Part shown: positions 54,959-59,010 of the stretch, in pieces
How the letters are laid out: each line of letters opens with the position of its first letter
Numbering within the stretch: position 1 is the stretch's first letter
Assembly: GCA_020061355.1 (NCBI GenBank)
Contig: JAGUYK010000022.1
Span: 62,001 to 126,000, forward strand
Source of the DNA: Ignavibacteriales bacterium
Lineage (GTDB): Bacteria; Bacteroidota; Ignavibacteria; Ignavibacteriales; Melioribacteraceae
Direction: 5' to 3'
DNA: 64,000 nt
Program-made: the position numbers and the translations under genes
Notes under the pieces: model-generated
Databases searched by the model: none
What the model saw: the letters and a program-made list of their open reading frames with translations, nothing else
What the model was told of the DNA's origin: nothing

Positions 54959-55435
54959 TTATTGTCCATCTTTAGGTCTTTTTCTACCCATTAAAGATTT
55001 AGCAATTTCCCTTCTAAACTTAAATTCAAATACTGTTAGTTTTGCTATTTGCTGAGGATTTAGAATATCGCTTAATGATTTGATAAATTCTTGTTTACCC
55101 AGAGACATCAGTTTTTCATGTTCAAGAATTTTATTTACCTGTTCGGAATAATAAGAATCTTTCAATCCTTTTTCTTTAATGTTTTTTTCCAAATCATTCA
55201 GAAGGCTTTCGCGGTTATTCATTAATTCTCGCATATTTTTCTGATGTTCGTTTCGACGGGCAAAAAATTTAATAGCCATTTCTTCATTTAGATCCAGGAC
55301 TTCAATGAGTTTAACCTTTTCAAGCTGTTCAATTTTCTCGAAAGGTCTTTCACTTCTTCTGTCAGGATCTTTCATTTGTCCTGAAATAGTTATTGTTGCA
55401 ATTATGAGGAGAATAATTAAATAGTTCTTTTTCAT
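54959..55435 (-). CDS. Spy/CpxP-like periplasmic protein in the sigma operon
   Basis: 158 residues with signal peptide (to about TISGQ). The mature part is all-helical and charged: VIEV-type start LIEVLDLNEEMAIKFFARRNEHQKN, and the second LNPQQIAKLTVFEFKFRREI, close to the LTxxQ pattern of Spy/CpxP/ZraP and of the metal sensor CnrX. It overlaps the anti-sigma gene by 4 bases, so it is translated with it. By analogy with CnrX it could be the periplasmic sensor for the anti-sigma factor. Confidence 0.72.
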   Translation of the reverse strand: MKKNYLIILLIIATITISGQMKDPDRRSERPFEKIEQLEKVKLIEVLDLNEEMAIKFFARRNEHQKNMRELMNNRESLLNDLEKNIKEKGLKDSYYSEQVNKILEHEKLMSLGKQEFIKSLSDILNPQQIAKLTVFEFKFRREIAKSLMGRKRPKDGQ

Positions 55436-56049
55436 TTTGATACCTTTTCAAATGTAATCATACTTAAGTTTTTATAAAGCTGCTGATATTCTGCATTAGA
55501 TAAATTTTCGAGCTGTGTATAATCTAACCTGCTTATATCCACATAGGGAGAAATTGTATTAAAGGAAAGACTTACATTTTCCGGCAGATACAATTCTAAA
55601 CCGTTCCCATTTTCTGAAAATGAAAGTGCCGATTCTAAGGAATAGTCGTAAATTAAATTATCTGCAATTTCATCATCGTTAATGTTTTTAATAATTTCAT
55701 AAGCAAGTGAAACCGGTTGATCAATATATTCCTTATCGTAAAATGGAGTAAGTATAAATAAAATCAAAATTACAGAAACTATTGGAATTGCTAACGTATA
55801 CTTTTTTAATATTGAGTATTTTCTTTTGATCGTCATTTTTTCTCTTAATTTCGGAACAATACTATCAAAATAAAGATCATTAACCCCGATATCATGAACA
55901 GATAGGAGATCGGTTAAACGGTTTTCCAAATAAACGAATCGTTCTTTCAATTCGGGATCGTTTTTCAATTGTGATTCAAAACGCTTTACTTCTTCCGCTT
56001 CCATAAGACCGGCAAAATATCTCAGAATTTTTTCGTCAATCTTTTTCAT
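55432..56049 (-). CDS. Anti-sigma factor-like single-pass membrane protein
   Basis: 205 residues. A cytoplasmic N-terminus (KKIDEKILRYFAGLMEAEEVKRFESQLKNDPEL) resembles the sigma-binding domain of anti-sigma factors; one membrane helix at about 87-105 (TLAIPIVSVILILFILTPF) leads into a periplasmic domain of 100 residues. It overlaps the sigma gene by 14 bases. It should hold the sigma factor inactive until an envelope signal arrives. Confidence 0.8.
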   Translation of the reverse strand: MKKIDEKILRYFAGLMEAEEVKRFESQLKNDPELKERFVYLENRLTDLLSVHDIGVNDLYFDSIVPKLREKMTIKRKYSILKKYTLAIPIVSVILILFILTPFYDKEYIDQPVSLAYEIIKNINDDEIADNLIYDYSLESALSFSENGNGLELYLPENVSLSFNTISPYVDISRLDYTQLENLSNAEYQQLYKNLSMITFEKVSK

Positions 56050-56584
56050 TTACAAGCTCCAATATTTTCTTTAAAGCATGAAAGTAATTAGCTTTTAATC
56101 CACCAACACTTTTCCCTGTAATTTTAGATATTTCCTCATATGATAGCTGGTCGTAATTTCGCATTACAAATATCTGGCGCTGCTTTGCCGGTAACTTATC
56201 CAAAGCATTATTAACCTTTTCAAGTTTATCTCTATTCGCTATATCCTGAATAATATCATGTTTACTTGACAATTCTTTTTCGTTCGCGCTATCAAATGTA
56301 ATCAGCTTTTTAAGTTTTTTTCTTCTTATCTGGTTTAGACTTCTTGTAGAAACAATTTTATAAATCCATGTATACAAAGATGACTTAAAACCGAATGTCT
56401 TCAACTTATTATACATTACTATAAGAACTTCCTGGGTTATTTCATCTGCATCGTGATGATCACCAAGCATCTGTCTTGCATGCCAATATATTTTTTTTTG
56501 GTACTTTCTCACCAATAAATTAAATGCGGTTTCATCCCCTGAAACAAATTTTTCAACTAATTCGAAATCGTTATCTATCTGCAT
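56036..56584 (-). CDS. ECF-type RNA polymerase sigma factor
   Basis: 182 residues from ATG at 56582-56584; a TTG 18 bases earlier is possible. Region 2: FNLLVRKYQKKIYWHARQML, ADEITQEVLIVMYNKL, SLYTWIYKIVSTRSLNQIRR. Region 4: LPAKQRQIFVMRNYDQLSYEEISKITGKSVGGLKANYFHALKKI. This is the minimal two-domain group 4 sigma. The operon order sigma, anti-sigma, Spy-like is typical of envelope-stress or metal-response ECF modules, and a promoter-like element sits 25 bases ahead of the ATG. Confidence 0.93.
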   Translation of the reverse strand: MQIDNDFELVEKFVSGDETAFNLLVRKYQKKIYWHARQMLGDHHDADEITQEVLIVMYNKLKTFGFKSSLYTWIYKIVSTRSLNQIRRKKLKKLITFDSANEKELSSKHDIIQDIANRDKLEKVNNALDKLPAKQRQIFVMRNYDQLSYEEISKITGKSVGGLKANYFHALKKILELVNEKD

Positions 56585-56608
56585 CTTATTAAAATTGTTC
56601 AAAAAATA

Positions 56609-56635
56609 GACACCCTATTATTAAGATAGGTTTAA
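56609..56635 (-). promoter_or_regulatory. Candidate ECF promoter of the sigma operon (TTAAACC-N15-GTGTC)
   Basis: On the minus strand TTAAACC (plus 56629-56635) and GTGTC (plus 56609-56613) are 15 bases apart and 25 bases from the sigma ATG. The same two words at the same spacing occur facing the other way in front of the divergent Spy-like gene. The arrangement resembles ECF promoters with AAAC at -35 and GTC at -10, so autoregulation is likely. Confidence 0.55.
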
Positions 56636-56686
56636 TATGGTTCAAATAATTTTTTGAGTCATTAACTATTATTATATAATTCTTCA

Positions 56687-56713
56687 TTAAACCAGCACTA
56701 ACTACTAAGTGTC
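56687..56713 (+). promoter_or_regulatory. Candidate ECF promoter of the divergent Spy-like gene (TTAAACC-N15-GTGTC)
   Basis: On the plus strand TTAAACC (56687-56693) and GTGTC (56709-56713) are 15 bases apart, 46 bases before the ATG at 56759. Both words and the spacing are identical to the element before the sigma gene, while the bases between differ, which argues for selection on the two boxes. Confidence 0.55.
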
Positions 56714-56758
56714 AAATTAGCAAAAAGTGAAAGAATAATTCAACATAAAGGAGGCGCA

Positions 56759-57235
56759 ATGAAAAAATCATTTGTTATATCGGTATTATTACTAGTTTTA
56801 TCAGTATCTCTAATCGCACAACCGGGAGAAAAAATGAAAAGAATGCAAATGGGTATGGGAGACAAACCCATTTTGGCAAAACTTAATTTAACTCCTGAAC
56901 AGGAAAAGCAATTCAATGATATTACTTACGATCATCAGAAAAAAGTAATAGATCTTAAGTCGCAAGTTGAAAAGAATCGTCTTGAACTGCGTAAAATGAT
57001 AAACGAAAAAAATATTGATGAGAAAAAACTGCTTGATCTTACAGATGCAAACAACAAATTACAAGCTGAAATGAAAGCATCCGGCGTTAAGAGATGGATT
57101 GCAATTAATAAAATGTTAAACGACGATCAAAAAGAAATTTGGTCGAAACACCTTGGTATTATGGGTAACAGAGAAGGTATGAGAGGTATGATGAAACAGC
57201 GAATGAAAGAGAGAGTTCAGCTTAAAATGCGCTAA
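56759..57235 (+). CDS. Spy/CpxP family periplasmic LTxxQ protein
   Basis: 158 residues. Signal peptide (MKKSFVISVLLLVLSVSLIAQ), then a Met/Lys-rich start (KMKRMQMGMGDK) and the LTPEQEKQFNDITYDHQKKV repeat followed by MLNDDQKEIWSKHLG, the two LTxxQ-like motifs of the family. The many methionines could bind copper or act in redox protection. It has a strong Shine-Dalgarno (AGGAGG, five bases from the ATG), unusual for this window. It is divergent from the ECF sigma operon and probably controlled by it; it is followed by its own terminator. Confidence 0.83.
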   Translation: MKKSFVISVLLLVLSVSLIAQPGEKMKRMQMGMGDKPILAKLNLTPEQEKQFNDITYDHQKKVIDLKSQVEKNRLELRKMINEKNIDEKKLLDLTDANNKLQAEMKASGVKRWIAINKMLNDDQKEIWSKHLGIMGNREGMRGMMKQRMKERVQLKMR

Positions 57236-57242
57236 AATTACG

Positions 57243-57267
57243 AAGCCCCGATAGGGGCTTTTTTTTA
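57243..57267 (+). terminator. Rho-independent terminator of the Spy-like gene
   Basis: Stem AAGCCCC (57243-57249), loop GATA, stem GGGGCTT (57254-57260), then a run of Ts. It lies 7 bases after the stop codon. Confidence 0.93.
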
Positions 57268-57317: not shown

Positions 57318-58031
57318 TTATAAATCCCCTTGAATTGGACGTAACACTATTTCTTCAGCCACAATATTTGATTTGAGAGAATAGATCTGATAAATGAGCT
57401 TAGCTATTTCTTCAGGAACCATCATCCTGTGCGAGTGTTCTTCCAGGACATTATTAGGCCAAATGGATGTCTTTGTTGCACCCGGAGAAACATTCATAAC
57501 CCTGATGTTATAGTTTCTTAATTCCTCTCTTAGGACTTTTGAGTAAGCCAAAAGCCCTTGTTTCGAAGCTGAATAGACACTACTATTTGTGAAAGTTTTT
57601 TGAGTTACAACGGAAAGAATATTGATTATTGTACCATTGTTATTTGCGATCATTGAAGGTAAAACAGTTTTTATAGAATAGATTGAGCCCAACAAATTTA
57701 CATTAATAATTTTTTCTATTTCTTCAATTGAATCTTCGCTTGCTGATTTGAACGAAGTCAAACCGGCATTATTTATTAATCCGTTTATAAAATAGTTCTC
57801 GGACAATTGGGAATAGAATGATATGACAGCATCCGGACTACTAATATCTAATTGATGGTGAATTATATTTTTAGATTTAAGACCAAGTTCTTTTTTAAAA
57901 TTCTGAATAAGATCCTTTCTTCGCGAAGTTGCAATAACAGTCTCGCCATTCTTTGCAAATTCTATTGCGAGGGCTCTACCGATTCCTGAACTTGTTCCGG
58001 TTATCCAAATTGCTTTTGAAAGTTCACTCAT
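57318..58031 (-). CDS. Short-chain dehydrogenase/reductase, possible sepiapterin reductase
   Basis: 237 residues. NAD(P) motif [11 protein letters not shown] at about 11-21, NNAG at about 90, catalytic Ser and YSASK (Tyr about 152, Lys about 156), then [11 protein letters not shown]. It is the third gene of a PTPS-FolE-SDR run in which each overlaps the next by 4 bases. In biopterin synthesis those three steps are GTP cyclohydrolase I, 6-pyruvoyl-tetrahydropterin synthase and sepiapterin reductase, an SDR. The assignment to that step is by context; as a lone gene it would only be called an SDR. Confidence 0.85.
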
Positions 58032-58597
58032 AATATTTTCTTAAGTGAAATAAGATCCAGGAATTCTGATCTTGTTCTTGCATCGGAATTGAAGATACCG
58101 TGCATCGCACTTGTTGTAGTAATGGAATTTTGTTTTTGAACTCCCCGCATCATCATGCACATATGGTAACCTTCTGCAACAACACCAACTCCTATCGGAC
58201 TAAGGTATTCTTCGATGGTATCGGCAATCTGCTGCGTCATTCTTTCCTGAACCTGAAGCCTTCGTGCAAATACATCAACAATCCTTGGAATTTTACTAAG
58301 TCCCACTATCTTACCACCCGGTATATAAGCGATATGAACTTTACCGAAAAACGGTAATAAATGGTGTTCACATAGACTATAAAAATCAATATCCTTCACA
58401 ATAACCATCTCATCATACTTTTCATTAAAGATGGCTCCGTTCAATACATCTTTGATATTTTTATGATATCCCTGGGTTAAAAATTCATATGCTTTGGCAA
58501 CACGGTGCGGTGTTTTTTTCAAACCTTCCCGGTTTTGATCCTCTCCAATTTCTTCAAGTAGAGATTTAATATTCTTTTCTACAACTTCAAGTTTCAA
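58028..58597 (-). CDS. folE: GTP cyclohydrolase I (type IA)
   Basis: 189 residues. Zinc ligands in [20 protein letters not shown] and [15 protein letters not shown], plus [33 protein letters not shown], the family signature. It converts GTP to 7,8-dihydroneopterin triphosphate, the entry to folate, biopterin and queuosine. Overlaps the PTPS gene upstream and the SDR gene downstream by 4 bases each. Confidence 0.97.
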
Positions 58598-59010
58598 AGT
58601 CGTCCCTTCCCTCTATATTCTACATAATTATTTTCAGTTTCATAAATTTTTATGGAATACAATTCACCCGATGGGATTTTATCTTCAAGCTGGTTCCAGA
58701 TACCAATGGCAATATTCTCAGCAGTAGGAATTACGCCTGCCATAAAATCGACATCCACATTTAAGTTTTTGTGATCAACTTTTTTAATCACGTTTTCTAT
58801 TATTATTTCTTTCAATATTTTAAGATCAATTACATAACCGGTGGCATAATCAATTTCACCCCGGACAATCACTTCAAGCACATAATTATGTCCGTGCCCA
58901 TTCGGATTACTGCATTTTCCAAAAATCCTTAAATTTTCCTCATCGGTATACTTTTCATTATAAAGACGATGCGATGCACTAAAAACTTCTCTTCTTGTCA
59001 GATACAGCAT
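58594..59010 (-). CDS. 6-pyruvoyl-tetrahydropterin synthase / QueD family protein
   Basis: 138 residues. [42 protein letters not shown] carries the zinc histidines and the catalytic Cys in the [12 protein letters not shown] form that is typical of true PTPS; the C-terminal [13 protein letters not shown] holds the substrate Glu. Bacterial QueD has a closely related sequence and makes carboxy-tetrahydropterin for queuosine. Because folE and an SDR follow directly, PTPS in a pterin pathway is favoured, but QueD remains possible. Confidence 0.87.

Follow-up and report, generated by a model that had tools for sequence, protein, structure and literature searches.

In the CnrYXH system of Cupriavidus metallidurans, an extracytoplasmic function (ECF) sigma factor, a membrane anti-sigma factor, and a Spy-fold periplasmic protein form one unit, and efflux genes are among its targets. 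We examined a locus of similar composition in a 64,000-nucleotide stretch of DNA, hereafter the window, from Ignavibacteriales bacterium, family Melioribacteraceae (assembly GCA_020061355.1, contig JAGUYK010000022.1, positions 62,001 to 126,000 of the forward strand). Genes for an ECF sigma factor, an anti-sigma factor, and a Spy-like protein (Spy1) follow one another on the minus strand, a gene for a second Spy-like protein (spy2) diverges from them on the plus strand, and efflux genes are putative targets. The reading that we favor, and consider likely, is that an autoregulated sigma factor of the Ignavibacteria drives an envelope-stress regulon here, with a Spy-fold protein as periplasmic co-regulator. 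Unlike CnrYXH, the locus encodes a class I-like rather than a two-helix class II anti-sigma factor, its Spy1 lacks conserved metal ligands, its genes run in the order sigma, anti-sigma, Spy1, its regulon is dispersed and includes extra Spy-like targets, and the pump in this genome is of the MacAB type rather than the resistance-nodulation-division (RND) type. Because neither the metal ligands nor the anti-sigma class of CnrYXH were found, we do not file the circuit as a member of that system.

In function, the closest working analogue would be the Bae/Cpx response. CpxP is titrated by misfolded proteins. In the BaeSR and CpxRA regulons, as in the one proposed here, a single envelope-stress regulator controls both Spy and a tripartite efflux pump. 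The regulators there are two-component systems rather than an ECF sigma factor, the pump is of the RND rather than the ATP-binding cassette (ABC) type, and several Spy-like paralogs are present here. The core Bae regulon of Escherichia coli is given as spy, mdtA, and acrD in a passage of PMC3160322. Class I pairs of the SigW/RsiW type are like this locus in that an AAC-type promoter precedes the sigma operon and the anti-sigma fold, predicted here, is class I-like, whereas the Spy-fold third member of the operon and the absence of cysteines from the window's anti-sigma factor set the locus apart. Within the LTXXQ/Metal_resist group of CpxP, Spy, and ZraP, Spy2 is a member by score. Spy1 and two products of remote genes, Spy3 and lipoprotein (ii) (see below), look like remote relatives, and Spy1 differs from the group in sitting in a sigma/anti-sigma operon and in scoring below Pfam thresholds.

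The features of the locus, in window positions, are as follows.

56036 to 56584 (probable ATG), minus strand: ECF sigma factor (Pfam Sigma70_r2, 50.3 bits; Sigma70_r4_2, 55.8 bits)
55432 to 56049, minus strand: anti-sigma factor, with one hydrophobic segment at about residues 85-103 and a class I-like N-terminal domain without cysteines
54959 to 55435, minus strand: Spy1, exported protein of the Spy/CpxP/CnrX fold by predicted model, fold, and profile comparison; putative periplasmic co-regulator
56759 to 57235, plus strand: Spy2, exported Spy-like protein (Metal_resist/LTXXQ) by Pfam and profile match
56609 to 56635, minus strand: sequence-predicted ECF promoter of the sigma operon (-35 TTAAACC at 56635-56629; -10 TGTC at 56612-56609)
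56687 to 56713, plus strand: sequence-predicted ECF promoter of the divergent spy2 (-35 TTAAACC at 56687-56693; -10 TGTC at 56710-56713)
57243 to 57266, plus strand: hairpin and T run resembling an intrinsic terminator, 3' of spy2 (by eye)
Ahead of spy2, plus strand: GGAGG-type ribosome site (by eye)

The promoter pair and its conservation

A sequence-only reading of this DNA had described overlapping sigma, anti-sigma, and Spy-like genes in one operon, a divergent second Spy-like gene, and the same element, TTAAACC-N15-GTGTC, in front of each side with different bases in between. All of this is borne out. The sigma and anti-sigma genes overlap at 56036-56049 and the anti-sigma and Spy1 genes at 55432-55435, and divergent spy2 matches Metal_resist at 45.6 bits. 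The minus-strand element (56609-56635) is TTAAACCTATCTTAATAATAGGGTGTC and the plus-strand element (56687-56713) is TTAAACCAGCACTAACTACTAAGTGTC, both exact matches with differing spacers. These are the sole two matches to the exact pattern in the whole assembly (3.69 Mb in 47 contigs, 99.88% complete), and the reversed control had none.

Conservation was scored within 600 nt before the sigma gene in 78 distinct loci, 60 close and 18 distant (L018 and L093, which come from one genome, were counted once). TTAAAC-N17-TGTC precedes the sigma gene in 68 of the 78, always with N17, and the divergent strand carries TTAAAC-N17/18-TGTC in 59 loci (53 with N17, 6 with N18). Among close loci, the motif is present in 59/60 on the sigma side (exception L126) and likewise in 59/60 on the divergent side (exception L028), so that the comparison of intergenic regions proposed by the sequence-only reading finds the pair kept. 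The exception on the divergent side belongs to genome G032, whose sigma locus has a different divergent open reading frame (ORF) and no divergent promoter; this genome carries a Spy2-like gene away from the sigma locus (L330, Metal_resist 45.2 bits) with the motif 43 nt upstream. In distant loci, the sigma-side motif was found in 9/18 and the divergent-side motif in 0/18, so the sigma promoter probably predates the divergent arrangement.

The core shared by the loci is TTAAACY...TGTC; the G that opens GTGTC lacks conservation (27% and 18%). Adenines follow TGTC at positions 29 and 30 in 88% and 65% of sequences on the sigma side and 96% each on the spy2 side. Spacer sequences vary freely among loci between the two boxes, an indication that selection acts on two boxes at a fixed spacing. 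ECF promoters are described in part of PMC8103513 as having an AAC -35 and a CGT -10. As judged from sequence and conservation only, the elements are a conserved ECF promoter pair, and an AAC-type promoter heads the sigma factor's own operon in 59/60 close loci. In 44/66 loci, 21-28 nt separate the -10 from the sigma ATG. In the window, the candidate starts are an ATG (56584), which follows the -10 by 24 nt, and the TTG at 56602 of the mechanical ORF, which falls about where transcription is expected to begin; the ATG is probably the start.

The two -35 boxes of the window are 51 bp apart (56629-56693 region). A divergent pair with both promoters complete and a gap of 31-61 bp occurs in 22/165 genomes of the order (reversed control, 0), and a shorter-gap pattern, for which one complete promoter suffices, occurs in 106/165, with a noticeable background in the control. 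Among the matches listed, the gap between TTAAAC boxes is 10-11 bp in 42/63 short-gap genomes and 8-13 bp in 58/63, while the bases between the boxes differ among these genomes. Since the -35 boxes are so often 10-11 bp apart, the back-to-back promoters may couple the sigma operon and its effector on the DNA. The gap analysis left aside G095, which has two pairs with gaps of 40 and 50, the ambiguous G099, matches confined to one strand, and matches outside those listed. Helical phasing of gaps of at least 14 bp with a 10.5-bp period was considered and rejected as weakly supported (nominal p 0.016 on 16 genus-distinct values, best-fitting period 9.4; p 0.036 when recomputed on 15 values with one of two 30s omitted, kinship not being corrected).

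The sigma factor consists of regions 2 and 4 with a short linker (Pfam regions 30-96 and 128-180 of 188 aa) and matches TIGR02937 at 97 bits (cut-off 42.9). An ortholog is present in 37 of the 39 genomes searched, its own included (E ≤ 1.7e-54; next paralog 7.9e-30), and most of its closest named relatives belong to the Ignavibacteria, Melioribacter and kin. Stygiobacter electus 09-Me (L084) shows this gene arrangement as well. On the far side of spy2, the minus strand at 57318-59010 carries overlapping genes for FolE (GTP cyclohydrolase I), a protein of the 6-pyruvoyl-tetrahydropterin-synthase family (score under the curated cut-off), and a short-chain dehydrogenase, a group suggestive of a biopterin-type operon. 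By eye, an ORF resembling short-chain dehydrogenases adjoins the sigma module in many of 30 loci compared.

Spy-like proteins and the anti-sigma factor

Spy1 has 158 residues and no meaningful match in Pfam (none at E 0.1 for the window protein), falling below the curated thresholds. Its homologs match Metal_resist in 6/55 cases and LTXXQ in 4/55 at E ≤ 0.1. Comparison of the Spy1 and Spy2 family profiles with hhalign gave a probability of 98.6%, signal peptides being included in the alignment, and the sole PDB match of the Spy1 profile below 0.001 was 5ihf, which the Spy2 profile also finds. The AlphaFold2 model of Spy1 (mean predicted local distance difference test [pLDDT] score, 91.4) has four helices after the signal. 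Its first four Foldseek ranks are STV (the 5ihf protein), CnrX, CpxP, and CnrX (E 0.09-0.38; probabilities 0.99, 0.99, 0.66, and 0.98), the best CnrX chain having E 0.22, probability 0.99, and a target-normalised template modeling (TM) score of 0.67. We regard the match of the model to the CnrX fold as suggestive rather than firm. The N-terminal hydrophobic helix (residues 2-19) is followed by an invariant Q20, which suggests that the helix is cleaved like a signal. An ORF of 110-260 residues lies 3' of the anti-sigma gene in 76/79 loci (one genome counted twice), and Spy1 has a match in 146/165 genomes of the order.

Spy2 passes the Metal_resist cut-off of 29.2 bits and falls just under that of LTXXQ (23.6 against 24.3). 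Its family profile matches Spy (9.2e-11), CpxP (8e-5), and ZraP (0.0024) in the PDB. The description of the second Spy protein as Met-rich fits the window protein, with 13 Met after residue 20, and is only partly true of the family (mean Met 5.8% in Spy2 homologs versus 3.2% in Spy1 homologs).

The anti-sigma factor of the window contains no cysteine and had no match above cut-off in Pfam. Its AlphaFold2 model (pLDDT 78.5; predicted TM score, 0.34) is best defined in the first 50 residues (93-98 by block), with helices at 3-12, 18-30, 32-52, and 58-77 and a hydrophobic stretch at 85-103 by hydropathy. A Foldseek search of the model against the whole PDB gave nine chains, all of class I (RsiW and RslA) and all weak, at E 1.5 or more. 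Among 50 anti-sigma homologs from operons, five match zf-HC2 (best 1.3e-9) and four, all from distant loci, have CxxC within the first 60 residues. A CxxC zinc-type motif was also noted by eye in the anti-sigma factors of L107, L108, L109, L111, L119, and L125, of which four were confirmed among the 50. Given the class I matches and the presence of zf-HC2 or CxxC in a few homologs, the anti-sigma factor most likely has a class I domain in which zinc ligands are absent, apparently through loss. In this it is unlike CnrY, which a passage of PMC7406223 assigns to class II.

The layout of the locus was said to resemble the CnrXYH metal-sensing system, with one Spy-like protein as sensor. The likeness holds for the layout and for the CnrX-like fold of Spy1, with weak E values, and does not extend to the metal ligands or to a class II anti-sigma factor. 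No column of conserved His, Cys, or internal Met was found among 58 aligned Spy1 homologs (best columns His 26, Cys 3, internal Met 20). On these columns and on the class I-like anti-sigma factor, the metal-sensing interpretation is not supported.

Candidate targets beyond the locus

The looser element TTAAACY-N16/17-TGTC has seven matches in the window's own genome: the pair, two inside ORFs, and three upstream of genes for exported proteins (reversed control, 19). One promoter type, as defined by this pattern, thus heads the sigma operon, spy2, and three remote genes. The first remote gene encodes Spy3, a Spy-like protein of 117 residues that matches LTXXQ only at E 0.08, and is followed by genes for an HlyD/MacA-type adaptor, an ABC ATPase (ABC_tran), a MacB permease (MacB_PCD/FtsX), and an outer membrane efflux protein (OEP). 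The second encodes a lipoprotein of 230 residues, lipoprotein (ii), with two LTxxQ-like stretches (LTXXQ E 0.0097, and 0.00022 for its ortholog in G005, both under the curated cut-off). The third encodes a lipoprotein of 265 residues, lipoprotein (iii), with no Pfam match.

Homologs of the three were sought in 39 genomes, and in some of the other genera, too, members of these target families carry the promoter. The motif precedes 6/16 Spy3-type genes (three in the genus, plus G019, G023, and G029), 6/7 lipoprotein (ii) genes (all five genus members and G005), and 10/21 lipoprotein (iii) genes, while the reversed motif precedes 0/44 target homologs. Among lipoprotein (iii) genes, L354, with the motif at -290, is doubtful, and the motifs of L347 and L362 overlap the mechanical start; in L138, L353, and L364, the ORF taken may not be the homolog's own.

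We also scored matches away from the sigma locus in these genomes as promoter-like when they lay outside ORFs of at least 120 residues and 8-200 nt before a same-strand ORF of at least 100. About 152 matches were found and 150 stretches examined, 149 of them distinct (L170 equals L165); the Spy3 matches of G003 and G004 were counted with the Spy3 homologs instead. For the reversed control, 75 stretches, of which 74 were distinct, came from 13 of these genomes. Promoter-like matches numbered 42/149 versus 3/74 for the reversed pattern (Fisher p 4.8e-6), and 38 versus 1 of the ORFs behind them had an N-terminal signal or anchor (Fisher p 5.8e-7), as called by a crude hydropathy rule on mechanical ORFs. 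The regulon signal is thus in the position of matches, not in their number. A genome-wide scan had been proposed as a check on the element, and its outcome is divided: the looser element is no commoner than its reversed control, while it is conserved at this locus, and its matches outside genes stand mostly ahead of envelope genes. Because remote envelope genes of this genome and of relatives also have the looser element in front of them, the description of the circuit as self-contained, given by the sequence-only reading, does not hold.

Several kinds of target recur. Efflux adaptors lie behind the motif in L315 and L331 (Pfam) and in L192, L228, and L296, with a further one, L208, just under the distance cut. 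Efflux outer membrane proteins were found in L148 and L155 (Pfam) and a MacB-like permease in L203. Outer membrane proteins with carboxypeptidase-regulatory and TonB-plug domains follow the motif in L188 (Pfam) and in L181, L196, L220, and L231. Those without mention of Pfam, L208 included, were identified by eye, without a family search. The motif also precedes a recurrent exported protein, alike by eye, in L206, L212 (only 3 nt before the ORF), and L319; the protein of L206 ends in a secretion-system sorting domain, Por_Secre_tail.

A sigma ortholog is missing from genomes G016 and G018, whose best matches reach 3e-23 and 1e-24, and Spy1 has no match in either. Both retain lipoprotein (iii) homologs, which lack the motif, and of the eight motif matches in the two genomes one is promoter-like, before a MATE-like transporter (by eye). 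We treat this as supportive only, because many sigma-bearing genomes also lack the motif at the lipoprotein (iii) gene.

Competing explanations and what the circuit may mean

In the envelope-stress circuit that we favor, this sigma factor would read all of these promoters. At rest, the membrane anti-sigma factor would hold the sigma factor, with Spy1 as periplasmic co-regulator in putative contact with the anti-sigma factor. Unfolded envelope proteins or noxious compounds would occupy Spy1, and the released sigma factor would then activate its own operon (feedback in both signs), the Spy chaperones, and the efflux pump. Levels of the anti-sigma factor and Spy1 would rise as well, and free Spy1 would end the response. 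Protein folding or compound stress is more likely as the signal than metal bound by Spy1. A more elaborate version, which we offer tentatively and hold to be rather doubtful in its full form, is a chaperone-titration circuit in which one Spy/CpxP/CnrX fold would serve, under one promoter, as sensor (Spy1), periplasmic effector (Spy2), partner of a MacAB-type pump (Spy3), and lipoprotein effector (the Spy-like lipoprotein).

A number of observations weigh against an envelope-stress regulon of this kind. All Foldseek matches of the anti-sigma model have E 1.5 or weaker, and those of Spy1 are at E 0.09 or worse, with unrelated helical proteins from rank 5 onward and further CnrX chains among them. 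The motif is missing from 10/16 Spy3-type and 11/21 lipoprotein (iii) homologs, 107/149 off-locus matches are not promoter-like, and across the 39 genomes the looser motif has a raw total of 217 matches versus 278 for the reversed control. The Fisher values overstate the evidence, because matches in related genomes are not independent. Furthermore, a paralogous ECF sigma gene of G013 (L286, G013:C15:165400-166900) has the motif 37 nt upstream, hinting at a cascade or shared specificity, so that cross-recognition is possible.

That last observation is one basis for supposing that the promoters are real, with a paralogous ECF sigma factor as their main reader and the sigma factor of the window as one of several with overlapping specificity. 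The window's genome has 15 sigma-like matches, which would allow for it. However, G016 and G018 each have 15 other ECF sigma matches and still lack the motif ahead of their lipoprotein (iii) homologs, and the motif stands before this particular sigma gene in nearly every close locus (59/60); we consider the explanation quite unlikely. A metal circuit of the CnrYXH type, in which Spy1 binds a transition metal, sigma is freed via the anti-sigma factor, and the regulon is metal efflux, seems to us unlikely as well. It would account for the single operon of sigma, anti-sigma, and Spy-fold genes, for the efflux operon behind the motif, for the Met-rich tail of Spy2 in the window, and for the match of the Spy1 model to CnrX (target-normalised TM score 0.66-0.71 for CnrX rows within the first 10). 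Yet the best His, Cys, and internal Met columns of Spy1 homologs reach 26, 3, and 20 of 58, while a conserved Met123 is required in CnrX according to a passage of PMC7689651; the same source, in part, describes CnrX as a transmembrane protein, whereas the helix of Spy1 ends at Q20 and may be cleaved like a signal. The class I-like anti-sigma factor and a pump of the MacAB-type ABC class, not RND, also speak against metal.

Two further explanations concern the element itself. Two conserved blocks with a variable middle are in principle compatible with the operator of an ordinary transcription factor, which would make the repeat something other than a promoter. The blocks are not mutual reverse complements, however, and the direction of the element agrees with that of the gene, the -10 keeps its distance of 21-28 nt from most sigma ATG codons, and the AAAC and TGTC blocks, with their constant spacing, match the ECF form with AAC and CGT (PMC8103513, in part), so that an operator is very improbable. 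Chance resemblance of two strings in an AT-rich intergenic region would be in keeping with the chance-level count of the element with up to two mismatches in the window (6 matches versus 4.5 expected), but it is refuted by the conservation of both sides, each in 59/60 close loci and with differing spacers, and its probability is close to nil. As the sequence-only reading had held, the pair is not a product of chance. That observation is sound, and its interpretation needs two corrections: the circuit is not self-contained, and it is not shown to be metal-sensing.

This kind of switch is known, and the present version of it seems undescribed. In open-licence literature, we found no paper joining Ignavibacter with an ECF sigma factor, subscription papers being largely outside the search, and none on a combined ECF/Spy-CpxP/MacAB regulon of Bacteroidota, nor did the titles found by related queries point to a system of this kind, a result that does not show absence from print. 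According to part of PMC7406223, only 6% of Bacteroidetes ECF sigma factors have class I anti-sigma domains, compared with an average of 32%, and their regulation is left open there. The operon described here is conserved through an order of a group related to Bacteroidetes, and its anti-sigma factor resembles a class I domain that lacks zinc and goes undetected by Pfam. The promoter code TTAAACY-N16/17-TGTC offers a testable regulon. Since the CnrX-like fold of Spy1 apparently lacks a metal site, metal sensing and chaperone sensing by one and the same fold may become comparable.

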